A DNA stretch of 31,518 nt, taken from positions 1 to 31,518 of the IMG/VR virus record IMGVR_UViG_3300020421_000089; one strand, given 5' to 3'. The notes beneath the pieces were generated by a model, which saw nothing but the letters and a program-made list of their open reading frames with translations, did no database searches and was not told the DNA's origin. Of this stretch, positions 2 through 27,050 are shown one piece after another. This DNA comes from a virus. Position numbers and translations under genes: made by a program. The stretch's first letter is position 1, and each line of letters opens with the position of its first letter.

Positions 2-454
2 GATGAAAAAGAATTAAACAAGTTTGTAATTAATTTTAGAGAAGAGTTTCTTAAAGTAAAACCAGAAATGATTTCTTTTCCTAGGTCTGTCAATGGCCTA
101 TCAAAGTATTTTGATAGTGGTACAACATTTAAAAAGTCAACACCTATGCATATCAAAGGTGCTCTGATTTACAATCACAAAATCAAACAAAACAAACTTA
201 TTAATAAGTATCCTTTGATACAAGAAGGTGATAAGATTAAGTTTGTTTATCTTAAACAACCAAACCCATATACTTCAAATGTAATTACTTACATTACTAA
301 ATTACCTAAAGAGTTTGACATACACAGTTTTGTAGATTACGAATTACAGTTTGAGAAAGTTTTTGTTGAACCTTTAACATTAATATTAAACACAATCAGA
401 TGGAGTATTGATAGAACTTATGGTACTCAAGGTACATTGGAGGATTTCTTTTGA
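2..454 (+). CDS. 43: DNA polymerase, family B (T4 gp43-like), C-terminal fragment
   Basis: The reading frame is open from the window edge, so this is the last 150 residues of a longer protein; the first internal Met is at 68. The segments ISFPRSVNGLSKY, TPMHIKGALIYNH, GDKIKFVYLKQPNP and VDYELQFEKVFVEPL match the thumb and C-terminal part of T4-type replicative polymerases. The protein ends in GTLEDFF, a hydrophobic/acidic tail of the type that docks the polymerase on the gp45 sliding clamp. The polymerase and exonuclease active-site motifs lie outside the window. The codons for the final LEDFF also supply the Shine-Dalgarno (GGAGG, 439-443) and part of the TTG start of the next gene. The family call is confident; only the fragment is visible. 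Confidence 0.93.
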   Translation, partial: DEKELNKFVINFREEFLKVKPEMISFPRSVNGLSKYFDSGTTFKKSTPMHIKGALIYNHKIKQNKLINKYPLIQEGDKIKFVYLKQPNPYTSNVITYITKLPKEFDIHSFVDYELQFEKVFVEPLTLILNTIRWSIDRTYGTQGTLEDFF

Positions 455-1275
455 TAGCTAAATTACTTATAGAACACATAGAACAAAAAACAAATGAACA
501 AGAAGTTGCAGTATTATTATCAGGTGGAGTAGATTCTATATCTGTTGCATTTGCTGCACATCTTGCCTTTAAAAAGATTAGATGTTATAGTTTTCAACTT
601 GATAATAATCCATCATATGATTTTAAAAAGGCAGAAGAGATATGTAAAATAATGAAGTGGCCGTTCGTTGGTGTGAATGTACCAGTTGCCAATTTAGAAG
701 ATGATTTTAAAAGATTATTAAAACACGGATGTCAAAAGAAAACACATTTTGAGTGTGTGTATCCCTTTCTATATGTCTATGAATGGATAAGTGAAAAGTA
801 TGTATTATCTGGTTGGGCAGCAGATGGTTATTATGGTGTAAGTAAAAAGGCTTGTATGCATTTCAAAGAACCTAAATCATTGTTTGACCAATTCAGAAAT
901 GATTATTTTAAAAAAGAAAATCGTGCAGGTTATTTACAACATAAAAAACTTGCAGACAAACATAATAAAGTATTTGTAACACCATACTTAGACAAAGAAG
1001 TTAAAAATTATTTCTATCAATATGATTGGTATCAATTAAATAAACCATATCAAAAACATATGGTCAGAGATGCTTTCAAATCATACTTCAACAGAATAGG
1101 TAAAGTAAAGAATCATTTAAATTTACAATTAGATAGTGGCATAGCAAACCTGTTTGAAACTTTGCTAAATAATAATAAAATAAATTTTAATAAAAGAAAT
1201 CGCATGTTAGAGGTTTACAAAGACTGGAAAGTATGTTACAATGGTGACACTTCGTTGGAGAATTTTTTTGTATAA
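451..1275 (+). CDS. Stand-alone asparagine-synthetase-type PP-loop amidoligase (candidate DNA-base amidation enzyme)
   Basis: A 274-residue protein. The PP-loop LSGGVDS lies at 23-29. LSGWAADGYYGV at 119-130 matches the GEGADELFGGY region of asparagine synthetases. TPYLDKEVKNYF (about 177-188) matches their PFLD motif, and KHMVRDAF (202-209) followed by a KVKNHLNLQ stretch matches their C-terminal ReaF...K region. The N-terminal glutaminase domain of AsnB is absent, so free ammonia or another amine would be the nucleophile. The family adenylates a carboxylate and then forms an amide. A TTG start at 451 is set by GGAGG at 439-443 and a 4-base overlap with the polymerase stop. The C-terminus SLENFFV resembles the polymerase clamp tail LEDFF. 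It overlaps the next gene by 8 bases and heads the methyltransferase/CmoA cassette, so I infer its substrate is a carboxylated DNA base. A tRNA- or small-molecule-directed role is possible. Confidence 0.8.
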   Translation: MIAKLLIEHIEQKTNEQEVAVLLSGGVDSISVAFAAHLAFKKIRCYSFQLDNNPSYDFKKAEEICKIMKWPFVGVNVPVANLEDDFKRLLKHGCQKKTHFECVYPFLYVYEWISEKYVLSGWAADGYYGVSKKACMHFKEPKSLFDQFRNDYFKKENRAGYLQHKKLADKHNKVFVTPYLDKEVKNYFYQYDWYQLNKPYQKHMVRDAFKSYFNRIGKVKNHLNLQLDSGIANLFETLLNNNKINFNKRNRMLEVYKDWKVCYNGDTSLENFFV

Positions 1276-2422
1276 GAAGTATTTTATGAAAGATGTTATT
1301 GAAGCATCTAAAGAAGAAAAGTTTACAGTTATATCTACATTTGCTGGTGGTGGCGGTTCATCAACTGGTTACAGACTTGCAGGTGGTAAAATATTATTAG
1401 TAAATGAATTTGTTGAAGCTGCAAGACAAACATATAAAGATAATTATCCTGATACAGAAATATTACCACAAGATATAAAAGACTTAACAGGTTTTGATTT
1501 TTTAGATACTGCTGGTATAAAACCAGGTGAGTTAGACATATTAGATGGTTCACCTCCTTGTTCTGCATTTAGTATTGCAGGTAAAAGAGATAAAGGCTGG
1601 GACCAAGAGAAAGAATATTCAGATGGTAAGAAAGTAGAAAATATTGAAGACCTATTTCTAGAATATGTTAGAATAGCAAAAGAGATTAAACCAAAAGTTA
1701 TTGTTGCAGAAAATGTAAAAGGTATAACTGTTGGTGAAGCAAAACAGAAACTTAACGAGTTTATAAATGCATTTCAGAATATAGGTTATGATGTTACTTA
1801 CAAAGTTATGAATGCTGCACACTATGGTGTTCCACAAGCAAGAGAAAGAACTATGTTTGTTTGTGTAAGAGAAGATGTTTGTGAGTCTGTTGGTTTAAAT
1901 TTTATGACACTTGGTAATATATTTCCAAAAGAAAATGATGAGATGGTAACATTAAGACACGCACTTGAAGATATAGAAAACGATAAAGATGAAGAGCAAA
2001 TGTTATTAGATTATGTTCAAGCTGGTTTTCAAAAGAAATGGATAGAACTGTTAGAGTTTGACCCACCTAAACATTTAAAACCATCTGACGAAAGATTTAT
2101 TGATATTAATCCTAAAAGGTCTATGTTTAATATGATTAGGCCTTGTCAAGATTTACCTTGTCCTACATTGACACAAAGAGGTCAACAAACTGTAGTGTCT
2201 GGTGTATTTCATCCTATGAAACATAGAAAGTTTACTGTACCAGAACTAAAAAGAATTATGTCACTACCTGAAGATTTTGTAATGAAGTCAGATAAAGAAA
2301 CTGTAGCTAAAAGATTTGACCAAAGTGCTGAGAGAATTGGTCGTATGGTTGCACCTAAAATGATGGCATCACTTGCCGATGCAATTTATGTAAATATATT
2401 GGAGCCTTATAATAATGTATAA
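1268..2422 (+). CDS. C5-cytosine DNA methyltransferase paralogue A (predicted carboxymethyltransferase)
   Basis: A 384-residue C5-cytosine methyltransferase. Visible motifs are motif I FAGGGGSSTG, motif IV GSPPCSAFS with the catalytic Cys98, motif VI AENV, motif VIII QARERTMFV, a short target-recognition stretch around FNMIRPCQDLPCPTLT, motif IX KRIMSLPEDF and motif X ERIGRMVAPKMM. In motif X the usual Asn of GN.V.P is Arg (codon 2342-2344). This is the site where Asn-to-Lys makes other C5 enzymes accept carboxy-SAM. I chose the TTG start at 1268 over ATG 1241 or ATG 1286: GGAG at 1257-1260 is 7 bases upstream, and from TTG the N-terminus aligns residue for residue with paralogue B, placing the catalytic Cys at 98 in both. 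No restriction endonuclease is nearby. Methyl or carboxymethyl transfer cannot be settled from sequence alone. Confidence 0.9.
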   Translation: MYKKYFMKDVIEASKEEKFTVISTFAGGGGSSTGYRLAGGKILLVNEFVEAARQTYKDNYPDTEILPQDIKDLTGFDFLDTAGIKPGELDILDGSPPCSAFSIAGKRDKGWDQEKEYSDGKKVENIEDLFLEYVRIAKEIKPKVIVAENVKGITVGEAKQKLNEFINAFQNIGYDVTYKVMNAAHYGVPQARERTMFVCVREDVCESVGLNFMTLGNIFPKENDEMVTLRHALEDIENDKDEEQMLLDYVQAGFQKKWIELLEFDPPKHLKPSDERFIDINPKRSMFNMIRPCQDLPCPTLTQRGQQTVVSGVFHPMKHRKFTVPELKRIMSLPEDFVMKSDKETVAKRFDQSAERIGRMVAPKMMASLADAIYVNILEPYNNV

Positions 2423-3533
2423 ACCATATTATTTAAAAGATGTAATTGATAGTGAGAAAAGAGAATTGTTTACTGTAATGTCAACTTTTGCTGGTGGCGG
2501 TGGTTCATCAACTGGTTATAGATTGGCTGGTGGTAAGATACTTGCAATAAATGAGTTTGTTGAAGAGGCTAGAAAAACATATAGTGAGAATTATCCTAAT
2601 ACACCTATTATGCCTGATGATATAAAAGAGATTACAGGTAAAGATATATTAGATTTAATTAATTTGAAAGAGGGTGAACTTGATATACTTGATGGTTCAC
2701 CACCTTGTTCTGCATTTTCAGTTGCAGGTGCAATGGTACAAGGTGGTCATTCAAAAGGATTTAATCAGACTAAGAAATATTCAGATGGTAAAAAGATAGA
2801 GAATATAGAAGATTTATTTTTTGAGTATCTAAGAGTTGCAAAAGAAATCAAACCAAAAGTGATAGTGGGTGAGAATGTTGCTGGTTTGACTATGGGTGAA
2901 GCAAAAGAATACTATAACAAAATAACAAATACTTTTGAACAGATAGGTTATGATGTATCATCTAAAGTTTTAGATTCATCTCACTATGGTGTTGCACAAA
3001 CTAGAAAGAGATTAATTTTTATTGCAGTTCGTGAAGATGTAACTGCAGATGTAGGTTTAACATTTATGAATATATCAAGCGTCTTTCCTGAGAAGTTTAC
3101 AGATGCAATGACTTGTGGTGAAGTATTTGAAAACTTAGAGTATGATGAAGAAGAGATAAAAGAACTTACAGAATCATTTGCAAGAGGTTCACATTTTGAA
3201 ACAGCATCAAAGATGCCAAAAGACCCAGAGAAAGTTTTGACTGGTGCAAACTATCATCCTAAAGGCCACCACTTTAATATGAAAAGAATATCAAGACATA
3301 AACCATCACCAACGATTACAGCATCGGGTGGTTGTATTCACTGGTCTGATATGAGAAAATTAGCATTATGTGAAACAAGAAGAATAATGTCTTTACCTGA
3401 AGACTTTAAACTTACAGGTAAATGGAAACAAAAGAGTGAGCGTATGGGTAGAATGGTACCTCCTCTTATGATGAAAGCTATTGCAGAATCAGTATATGAA
3501 AAAGTATTGAAACCATACAAGGAGAAAAAATGA
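2415..3533 (+). CDS. C5-cytosine DNA methyltransferase paralogue B (predicted carboxymethyltransferase)
   Basis: A 372-residue tandem paralogue of the preceding gene, overlapping it by 8 bases. It has motif I FAGGGGSSTG, motif IV GSPPCSAFS (Cys98), motif VI GENV, motif VIII AQTRKRLIFI, a recognition stretch around HFNMKRISRHKPSPTIT, motif IX RRIMSLPEDF and motif X ERMGRMVPPLMM. Motif X again has Arg (residue 346, codon 3450-3452) in place of the family Asn. The N-terminal half is very close to paralogue A. The segment between motifs VIII and IX differs in sequence and length, and B has an insertion (AMVQGGHSKGF) after motif IV. That pattern suggests different target sequences with the same cofactor choice. 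The start ATG 2415 has GGAG at 2401-2404, a rather long spacing. Confidence 0.9.
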   Translation: MYKPYYLKDVIDSEKRELFTVMSTFAGGGGSSTGYRLAGGKILAINEFVEEARKTYSENYPNTPIMPDDIKEITGKDILDLINLKEGELDILDGSPPCSAFSVAGAMVQGGHSKGFNQTKKYSDGKKIENIEDLFFEYLRVAKEIKPKVIVGENVAGLTMGEAKEYYNKITNTFEQIGYDVSSKVLDSSHYGVAQTRKRLIFIAVREDVTADVGLTFMNISSVFPEKFTDAMTCGEVFENLEYDEEEIKELTESFARGSHFETASKMPKDPEKVLTGANYHPKGHHFNMKRISRHKPSPTITASGGCIHWSDMRKLALCETRRIMSLPEDFKLTGKWKQKSERMGRMVPPLMMKAIAESVYEKVLKPYKEKK

Positions 3534-4234
3534 CAAAGTATGATTTTACTTTTGCACACAGAGAAGAAGGATTTGACGAACACATAGAACACTCTATTCG
3601 TGGTTATTCTAATTTATTAGATGATGTTGTTAATCTTTCAAAATATTTTGTAGAACCAGATACCAAAGTTGTTGATGTTGGTTGTTCTACAGGTAAGGTT
3701 ACAAAAAGAATGATAGAATCACATTTAGATATAAACATTGATGATGTGATATATGAAGGTGTTGAACTGGCAAAAGGTTTTGAGAAACCATTAGAAAATA
3801 GAAGAAAAGAATTAAGTAAAGAATACCCAGAGAGTAATGTTAATTTTATAAATGATGATGTAAGATTTTATGAATTTAAGAATTGTTCTCTAGTAACTTC
3901 AATATTCACTTTACAATTTATGCCTATGAAAGATAGGTCTAAATTAATCTCTCAGATTTATGAAGGATTAAATGTTGGTGGTGGATTTATCTTTGCAGAG
4001 AAGTTATTATGTAGTAATGCAAAGATACAAGAAATGATGACTTTCAATTATTATGATTATAAGAGAAAACATTTTGAAGCAAAAGATATAATGGATAAAG
4101 AGAAAACATTAAGACATATGTTAAAACCAAATACTTGGAAACAAATAAAAGATATGATACTTGATGCAGGCTTTCAAGATGTACAATGTTTCTGGAGTAA
4201 TCATATGTTTGTTGGTGCATTGGCGTTAAAATAA
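3530..4234 (+). CDS. cmoA-like: CmoA-like carboxy-S-adenosylmethionine synthase
   Basis: A 234-residue class I SAM-fold protein that aligns along its length with E. coli CmoA. RGYSN (24-28) matches [14 protein letters not shown] (47-55) matches [17 protein letters not shown] (125-132) matches [18 protein letters not shown] (143-152) matches IYQGLNPGGA, FAEK (155-158) matches LSEK, and the ends FVGALALK and FGSLVALK agree. CmoA converts SAM plus prephenate to carboxy-SAM, normally for CmoB in wobble-uridine modification. No cmoB is in the window, and the gene is coupled (ATGA overlap, GGAG at 3521-3524) to two C5-methyltransferases. I therefore infer that its product feeds DNA carboxymethylation. 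The E. coli Arg199 region aligns with MDKEKTL (188-194), where the basic partner is most likely Lys192; this alignment is ambiguous and is the weak point of the call. A plain methyltransferase is the alternative. Confidence 0.85.
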
Positions 4235-24133: not shown

Positions 24134-25141
24134 ATGAATACTTTTATTGATATAAAATACATAGGATTACTGTCCCCAAAATTAGAACAATTTAAGAAAA
24201 AGAACGATGGTTTATATAACTTTCGTTGTCCATATTGTGGTGATTCTAAAAGAAACAGAACTAAGGCTAGAGGTTATCTTATTCACAATAAAACATTTTT
24301 TGTGTATAAGTGTCACAACTGTGAAAAGAGCACTGATTTCTCTAGTCTTTTAAAGTTTGTAAATACTGGTTTATATGATGAATATAATTTTGAAATGTAC
24401 AAAAACAAAGAATTATATATACAATCAGACGATAATAAAAAAGAATTAAATTTAACTAAACCAGCTTATTTGAAAGGGGACTCACCACTTAAAAATATCA
24501 AGAAAATCTCACAACTTAGTCCCTTTCACCCTGCAGTCAAATGGGTTAGAGATAGAAACATTCAAAGTCGTTTTCATTATAAGTTGTTTTTCTGTGATAA
24601 GTTTTTTAAGTGGGTCAATACTTTTATTCCAAACAAATTTCCATCTTTGAAAGGTGACCACCCTAGACTGGTGATACCTTTTCTTGATAAAGAAGATAAG
24701 ATGTTTGCACTACAAGGTCGTGCGTTTGGAAAAGAAGAACCTAAATATCTAACAATCAGATTAGATTATTCAAAAAAGTTATATGGTTTAGATACTATCA
24801 ACTGGAACAAAAAGATGTATGTCGTTGAGGGTCCTATTGATAGTTTGTTCTTAGATAATTGTGTTGCAACTGCACACTCTGATTTAAGAATTGATAAAAA
24901 AGAGAATGTAGTTTTGGTACCAGATAATGAACCTAGAAATAAAGAAATAGTAAAAAGAATTAAAAGTTTTATTGATGATGATTTTTCTGTATGTTTGTTT
25001 CCTGAAAACATTCAACACAAAGACATCAACGATATGGTCTCTTCTGGTGTAAGAGATATAAAAAAATTAATAGACGAAAACACATATAGAGGACTAGAAG
25101 CTAAAGTCCGATTTAACACTTGGAGAAAAGTAGATGCTTAA
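24134..25141 (+). CDS. 61: DNA primase (T4 gp61-like)
   Basis: A 335-residue primase. The zinc-binding domain has CPYC (32-35) and CHNC (60-63). The Toprim core has MYVVEGPIDSLFL with the catalytic Glu, then VLVPDNEPRN as the acidic D.D-type segment and HKDINDM. It makes lagging-strand RNA primers together with gp41. No Shine-Dalgarno precedes ATG 24134, and the perfect promoter places the transcript start at the ATG, so the mRNA is probably leaderless. An 11-base-pair stem with one bulge (24471-24482 with 24518-24528) lies within the gene. Confidence 0.92.
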   Translation: MNTFIDIKYIGLLSPKLEQFKKKNDGLYNFRCPYCGDSKRNRTKARGYLIHNKTFFVYKCHNCEKSTDFSSLLKFVNTGLYDEYNFEMYKNKELYIQSDDNKKELNLTKPAYLKGDSPLKNIKKISQLSPFHPAVKWVRDRNIQSRFHYKLFFCDKFFKWVNTFIPNKFPSLKGDHPRLVIPFLDKEDKMFALQGRAFGKEEPKYLTIRLDYSKKLYGLDTINWNKKMYVVEGPIDSLFLDNCVATAHSDLRIDKKENVVLVPDNEPRNKEIVKRIKSFIDDDFSVCLFPENIQHKDINDMVSSGVRDIKKLIDENTYRGLEAKVRFNTWRKVDA

Positions 25142-27050
25142 CGGAAAATTACCAACTAAATATCAAGAATTTATTCACCTGTCAAGATATTCAAGGTGGC
25201 TACCAAAAGAGGGTAGAAGAGAAACTTGGAGAGAAACAGTAACTAGATACTTTGATTTCTTTCAAGAACATTTAAAAGAAAGTTGTAATTATAAATTAGA
25301 TTCAAAATTAAGAGAAGAGTTGGAAGATGCTGTTATACATTTAGATGTTATGCCATCTATGAGATGTTTAATGACTGCAGGTGAAGCATTAAGAAGAGAG
25401 AATATCGCTGGATATAACTGTTCTTATGTTTCAGTAGATAGACCACAAGCATTTGATGAAATACTTTATGTATTGATGAATGGTACAGGTGTAGGTTTTT
25501 CAGTTGAAAGACAATTTGTAAGTAAATTACCAGATGTGGCTGAAGAGTTTCATCCTAGTGATACCACAATAGTTGTACAAGATAGTAAAATGGGTTGGGC
25601 TAAAGCTTTCAAAGAATTAGTCGCTATGTTATATCACGGACAAATACCAAAATGGGATTTAAGTAAAGTTAGACCAGCTGGTGCACCATTGAAAACATTC
25701 GGTGGTAGAGCATCTGGGCCAGAACCACTTGAGAGATTGTTTGATTTTACAAAAGAAGTTTTTCAAAATGCTGCTGGTAGAAAACTAAGTAGTATTGAGT
25801 GTCACGATATTGTTTGCAAAACAGCAGAGATTGTTGTTGTAGGTGGTGTTAGAAGAAGTGCATTAATAAGTTTATCAAATCTTTCTGATGATAGAATGAG
25901 AGTTGCAAAGTCTGGTCAATGGTGGCAAGACAATGGTCAAAGAGCTCTTGCTAATAATAGTGCAGCATATACAGAAAAACCAGACATTGGTATCTTTATG
26001 GATGAATGGAAGTCTTTGTATGAAAGTAAGTCAGGAGAAAGAGGAATATTCAATAGAGAGTCTGCACAGAAGATTGCAGAGAAAAGTGGTAGAAGAGATT
26101 CAGATTATGAATTTGGAACCAACCCTTGTTCAGAGATAATATTACGAAGTAGAGAATTTTGTAATTTATCTGAGGTTGTTGTTAGACCAAATGATACTGA
26201 AGAAAGTTTATTGAAAAAAACAAGACTTGCAACTATTCTAGGTACATTTCAATCAACACTAACAAACTTTAAATATGTAAGTAAAGATTGGAAAAAGAAC
26301 TGTGAAGAAGAAAGACTTCTTGGTGTATCACTTACTGGTATTATGGATAATAAATGGACTGCTGGTAAGATAAATGGTTTAGATGTGTTATTACAAAATC
26401 TAAGACAAATGAGTGTTGACACAAATAAAGAATATGCAGATGCATTAAAGATAAATCAATCAACAGCTATAACTTGTGTGAAGCCATCTGGTACTGTTTC
26501 TCAATTAGTAGATAGTGCAAGTGGTATTCACGCAAGACATAATCCTTATTATATCAGAACTGTAAGAGGTGATAAGAAAGACCCACTTACAAAGATGATG
26601 GTTGATTTTGGATTTCCAGCTGAAGATGATGTAATGAAACCAAAAGACACAACAGTATTTTCATTTCCTATAAAATGTAGTGAAGATGCAGTGTTTAGAC
26701 AGGATATGACGGCCATAGAGCAATTAGAATTATGGAAGACATATCAAGAACACTGGTGCGAACATAAACCATCGGTTACCATTTCGGTTAAGGAAAATGA
26801 ATGGATAGATGTTGGAGCTTGGGTTTATAAATATTTTGATTTGATGAGTGGAGTAAGTTTCTTACCATATAGTGAACATACATATAAACAGGCACCATAT
26901 CAAGATTGTGACGAAAATGAATATAAGGAGTTATTGAAAAAGATGCCTACTAATGTAGATTGGTCTAAATTATCTGATTATGAAACTTCAGATATGACAG
27001 TAGGTTCTCAAGAGTTAGCATGTTCTGCTGGTTCTTGTGAGATTCAATAA
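25134..27050 (+). CDS. nrdJ: Class II (adenosylcobalamin-dependent) ribonucleotide reductase
   Basis: A 638-residue monomeric RTPR-type reductase. The active-site finger TNPCSEIILRSREFCNLSE carries Asn330, Cys332, Glu334 and Cys343; GYNCSY carries Cys96. CVKPSGTVSQLVDSASG is a second conserved loop. The C-terminal CSAGSC (Cys630, Cys635) is the re-reducing pair. These correspond to the known residues of the Lactobacillus enzyme. It converts ribonucleotides to deoxyribonucleotides without oxygen or a small subunit, and it depends on host or environmental B12. GGAG precedes ATG 25134, and the gene overlaps the primase by 8 bases. Confidence 0.93.
   Translation: MLNGKLPTKYQEFIHLSRYSRWLPKEGRRETWRETVTRYFDFFQEHLKESCNYKLDSKLREELEDAVIHLDVMPSMRCLMTAGEALRRENIAGYNCSYVSVDRPQAFDEILYVLMNGTGVGFSVERQFVSKLPDVAEEFHPSDTTIVVQDSKMGWAKAFKELVAMLYHGQIPKWDLSKVRPAGAPLKTFGGRASGPEPLERLFDFTKEVFQNAAGRKLSSIECHDIVCKTAEIVVVGGVRRSALISLSNLSDDRMRVAKSGQWWQDNGQRALANNSAAYTEKPDIGIFMDEWKSLYESKSGERGIFNRESAQKIAEKSGRRDSDYEFGTNPCSEIILRSREFCNLSEVVVRPNDTEESLLKKTRLATILGTFQSTLTNFKYVSKDWKKNCEEERLLGVSLTGIMDNKWTAGKINGLDVLLQNLRQMSVDTNKEYADALKINQSTAITCVKPSGTVSQLVDSASGIHARHNPYYIRTVRGDKKDPLTKMMVDFGFPAEDDVMKPKDTTVFSFPIKCSEDAVFRQDMTAIEQLELWKTYQEHWCEHKPSVTISVKENEWIDVGAWVYKYFDLMSGVSFLPYSEHTYKQAPYQDCDENEYKELLKKMPTNVDWSKLSDYETSDMTVGSQELACSAGSCEIQ

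Follow-up and report, generated by a model that had tools for sequence, protein, structure and literature searches.

Ordinary SAM-dependent DNA cytosine-C5 methyltransferases have an asparagine in motif X, but in methyltransferase A (enzyme A, or CmoX-A) of a 31.5 kb virus record, the whole of which is referred to here as the window, this residue is an arginine. The locus raises the question of whether enzyme A uses carboxy-SAM (Cx-SAM) in place of SAM; the original prediction was that the arginine would supply the positive charge for the carboxylate.

A reference for these enzymes is the CmoA-CmoX-CmoY system of Synechococcus phage S-B43 (Yang et al., Nat Commun, Dec 2025; PMC12783734). In that system CmoA was shown to be active and produces Cx-SAM, CmoX is a monomer whose product is 5-carboxymethylcytosine in GC, and CmoY attaches glycine (PMC12783734). 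In the CmoX crystal structure with bound Cx-SAM (8YF3), Arg350 touches the carboxylate of the cofactor, and Phe25, Glu47, Phe48 and Asp69 make the other contacts; the wild-type enzyme takes only Cx-SAM, and the R350N protein is inactive and takes neither cofactor (PMC12783734).

The gene cluster and the motif X arginine

The gene for enzyme A was found to be one of four plus-strand genes that occupy positions 451-4234 of the window, between the end of the DNA polymerase gene and the uvsX gene, with each gene overlapping the next (Table 1). The encoded CmoY-like ligase, CmoX-A, CmoX-B and CmoA share 48%, 51%, 63% and 61% identity, respectively, with their S-B43 counterparts. The cmoA gene lies two genes downstream of cmoX-A in this run of overlapping genes and overlaps cmoX-B by 4 nt. 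TIGR00740 was the best NCBIfam match to the window CmoA, at 119.8 bits, which is under the curated 193.3-bit cut-off; the active S-B43 CmoA likewise scores under this cut-off. In comparisons with close relatives, dN/dS was about 0.1-0.26 across all four genes (0.10-0.26 for the cmoY-like gene and 0.11-0.25 for cmoX-A), and by this measure all four look to be under purifying selection.

Table 1. Features of the window in and around the motif X arginine codons
Feature	Position	Strand	Basis
cmoY-like ATP-dependent amide ligase	451..1275	+	Asn_synthase domain, Pfam 1.1e-13; without glutaminase domain
cmoX-A, DNA cytosine-C5 carboxymethyltransferase homologue (methyltransferase A)	1268..2422	+	PF00145 1.4e-54
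cmoX-A target-recognition region, approximate bounds	1892..2227	+	strongly divergent from cmoX-B, 31% identity
Arg359 codon CGT, motif X	2342..2344	+	aligned with M.HhaI Asn304 and 8YF3 Arg350
cmoX-B, second carboxymethyltransferase homologue	2415..3533	+	8YF3 E=2.2e-151; clade of S-B43 CmoX
Arg346 codon AGA of cmoX-B, equivalent motif X site	3450..3452	+	aligned column
cmoA, Cx-SAM synthase homologue	3530..4234	+	TIGR00740 CmoA 1.5e-34; matches to the structures of YecO and E. coli CmoA

The sequence ERIGRMVAPKMM was found in the translated methyltransferase A gene, and its motif X arginine is residue 359 when numbered from the TTG codon at 1268. This codon, which is preceded by GGAG 7 nt upstream, is most likely the start of the frame, rather than the ATG at 1241, which has no such site. 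In a profile alignment of 38 relatives, Arg359 fell on Asn304 of M.HhaI (QFGNSVVINV), with no gaps nearby; in the same column M.HaeIII has the asparagine of its IGNAVP, and 8YF3 has Arg350. The replacement of the motif X asparagine noted originally was thus confirmed by the M.HhaI alignment. The arginine was invariant in the column (38 of 38 aligned homologues) and is specified by a different codon in the paralogue CmoX-B; it therefore represents neither a chance substitution nor a sequencing error. Judged by homology to 8YF3, the residue would lie near the SAM methyl and carboxylate pocket, as had been proposed, and no placement elsewhere was found.

The tandem CmoX enzymes

CmoX-A and CmoX-B were 66% identical in their catalytic halves and 31% identical in their recognition regions; for the C termini the value was intermediate, at 46%. 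In phylogenetic analysis CmoX-B clustered with the CmoX proteins of S-B43 and S-CRM01 (support of 98), and CmoX-A fell in the other large clade (support of 80), its exact depth there being uncertain. The recognition region of CmoX-B was 46% identical to that of S-B43 CmoX, compared to 32% for CmoX-A. Since the two enzymes belong to separate clades, have diverged to 31% identity in the recognition region as against 66% in the catalytic half, and are apparently under purifying selection, they probably recognise and mark different sequences. Base composition was rejected as a guide to the target of enzyme A; in the window GC dinucleotides occur about as often as expected (0.98) and CG is under-represented (0.37), values that decide nothing.

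It is less likely, although a reading of some weight, that the two enzymes duplicate each other or work only as a heterodimer, with no separate target sequences. Their genes are adjacent and co-oriented in the window lineage, and sequence alone is compatible with a heterodimer. However, most relatives have one CmoX, the S-B43 enzyme is monomeric (PMC12783734), and the divergence between A and B is concentrated in the recognition region. A different tandem, composed of two A-clade enzymes, was found on five contigs and also argues against this alternative, since in L042, L048 and L055 identity fell to 39-43% in the recognition region from 70-72%, the divergence lying mainly there.

The pairing of A with B was observed on 13 other contigs, in some of which B is cut off or broken. 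Comparison of cmoX-B with a more distant gene (L009:6136-7302) gave a dN/dS of 0.43 and an identity of 64%, whereas the neighbouring genes were 82-90% identical; the difference was spread across the gene and was greatest in the recognition region. The lower identity of B relative to its neighbours suggests that this gene was replaced by another B-clade gene. The broader proposal, that one lineage carries two CmoX enzymes of separate ancestry and with different targets, placing 5cxmC or the amide in two contexts, and that related phages exchange the second enzyme like a restriction-specificity module, is in our estimate evenly poised between right and wrong. Tandem or paralogous CmoX enzymes are not mentioned in the main text of the S-B43 report (PMC12783734).

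Cofactor use by enzyme A

The use of Cx-SAM by enzyme A is well supported by sequence evidence that is independent of the motif X residue. The best PDB match of the enzyme was 8YF3 (E=1.6e-111), which led the other structures by a wide margin for both A and B. The catalytic Cys98 of enzyme A, in an SPPC motif, and its Phe25, Glu47, Phe48 and Asp69 have the same residue numbers as in 8YF3 and were invariant in the 38 sequences. Among 80 viral loci with a gene for a relative of enzyme A, about 64 also have one for CmoA, a count that was read off the locus table by eye and refers to the stretch fetched per locus. Every readable motif X in these 80 loci had arginine, that of L073 being taken from the 38-sequence alignment. 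No A-clade enzyme is known to us to have been assayed. The original prediction of Cx-SAM use was strengthened by the nearby CmoA gene and by the closest structure, but the change on which it was based is not peculiar to enzyme A, being present also in enzyme B.

The A-type gene had no CmoA gene close by on 11 contigs, all of them fragments; nine of these had no CmoA gene anywhere on the contig available, and a CmoY match was found in none of the 11. The A-type genes for which neither CmoA nor CmoY was found were those of L033, L035, L038, L041, L049, L050, L051, L052 and L069. Such contigs either are fragments or derive from phages that use the CmoA of the host.

In a panel of 18 named phages, each of which has a cytosine methyltransferase, arginine was found at motif X in seven of the nine with CmoA and in none of the nine without it, in which the residue was Asn, Met or Leu. 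The association was significant by Fisher's test (p = 0.002, or p = 0.005 with related phages collapsed), although the panel is small and non-random. The two exceptions were Staphylococcus phages with glycine in the motif X column, and arginine is therefore not a universal partner of CmoA. In these phages, SPbeta-like (L107:3986-5685) and vB-SscS-F1 (L108:3950-6468), CmoA adjoins a cytosine methyltransferase with GGVIN at motif X and GSPC at motif IV, and in vB-SscS-F1 a CmoY-like gene lies between the two. If these enzymes use Cx-SAM they must hold the carboxylate in another way, and they would be missed by the CmoX filter of SPPC plus Arg350 that was used previously (PMC12783734). At the sequence level, Cx-SAM use is well predicted by arginine at motif X.

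Other motif X variants were also observed. Three cytosine methyltransferases of Bacteroidota phages (L100:1231-2298, L103:1510-2304 and L105:1240-2319) have methionine (GMSVPP), and CmoA was not found in the genomes of these three phages. In Moraxella phage Mcat8 (L095:1441-3148) a GRMVAP cytosine methyltransferase lies beside a gene that resembles cmoA but has diverged, scoring 62 bits against TIGR00740; the two genes are annotated as hypothetical.

The possibility that enzyme A makes 5mC from SAM, as ordinary methyltransferases do, and tolerates arginine at motif X, with Cx-SAM being used only by enzyme B, was judged to be very improbable. In its favour, enzyme A is farther from CmoX than is enzyme B (51% compared to 63% identity), Leu or Met is tolerated at motif X in other phage enzymes, and in Methylophilales phage Melnitz the gene for a Leu enzyme stands ahead of one for a TET/JBP-type oxygenase, an arrangement that implies 5mC formation. 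The Melnitz case argues against taking every departure from asparagine at motif X as a mark of an unusual cofactor, and it limits that reading to arginine. Against an ordinary enzyme A, arginine was invariant in the aligned A-type sequences, an A-type enzyme was the sole CmoX between CmoA and CmoY in L017, L020, L043 and others, and S-B43 CmoX, which has the same arginine and contacts, takes only Cx-SAM (PMC12783734). Enzyme A very probably transfers a carboxymethyl rather than a methyl group to C5 of cytosine in DNA.

We infer that the cassette proteins have the activities of their S-B43 homologues and that the targets of A and B are not the same. In the proposed pathway CmoA would convert SAM and prephenate to carboxy-SAM. 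CmoX-A and CmoX-B would each flip out a cytosine, with Cys98 attacking C6, and pass the carboxymethyl group to C5 to give 5-carboxymethylcytosine. The motif X arginine (Arg359 in A, Arg346 in B) would grip the carboxylate and so favour Cx-SAM over SAM, the position of Arg359 being predicted by alignment to the solved homologue 8YF3. CmoY, with ATP, would then activate the carboxylate and couple an amine, probably glycine; CmoX-B probably targets GC, like S-B43 CmoX. We are highly confident that positions 451-4234 constitute a phage cytosine-hypermodification cassette, CmoY-CmoX-A-CmoX-B-CmoA, that works in this way. That the phage CmoA instead serves cmo5U modification of host tRNA, unconnected to the methyltransferases, is scarcely credible despite the classical role of CmoA homologues as tRNA-modification enzymes, given the 4-nt overlap of cmoA with cmoX-B and its closest similarity to S-B43 CmoA, whose product feeds CmoX (PMC12783734).

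Phage context and comparison with known systems

The closest cultured relatives of the window phage, as determined by UvsX, were Melnitz, at 83%, followed by Pelagibacter phage HTVC008M, at 74%. Melnitz (L096:3869-6053) resembles the window in having cytosine-modification genes between DNA polymerase and recA/uvsX; it differs in having leucine at motif X and no CmoA, a TET/JBP-type oxygenase taking the place of CmoA and CmoY. In HTVC008M the DNA polymerase, uvsX and helicase genes follow one another as they do in the window, but its DNA polymerase-uvsX interval has no annotated methyltransferase. From these three genomes, related phages appear to differ in the cytosine-modification module that occupies the DNA polymerase-recA/uvsX interval. 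Elsewhere in the window, two adjacent 2OG-Fe(II) oxygenase genes (PF13759; 7205-7780 and 7780-8313) lie downstream of the helicase gene. The ribonucleotide reductase at 25134-27050 has its closest counterparts (66%) in phages that are not T4-like, among them Puniceispirillum phage HMO-2011, whereas T4-like phages are the nearest relatives in the uvsX region.

With this cassette, the range of a DNA modification described only recently widens to relatives of Pelagibacter and marine methylotroph phages, and CmoX enzymes with probably different targets would be useful for site-selective DNA labelling via the carboxylate handle. In the engineered carboxymethyltransferase M.MpeI N374K a positive residue likewise replaces the motif X asparagine (PMC12783734); there it is an engineered lysine in an enzyme with a CG target, whereas the arginine of the window is natural. 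The S-B43 system and the window have in common the three enzyme families in one cluster, the motif X arginine, SPPC and the reported Cx-SAM contacts. They differ in that S-B43 has one CmoX gene and the window two, in gene order (CmoA-CmoY-CmoX compared to CmoY-CmoX-CmoX-CmoA), in the recognition region of enzyme A, and in the phage itself, that of the window being a relative of the marine phages Melnitz and HTVC008M and not a cyanophage. The carboxymethyl chemistry is not new, having been published for S-B43 in December 2025; what the window contributes is another member, one with a tandem, probably dual-specificity arrangement.
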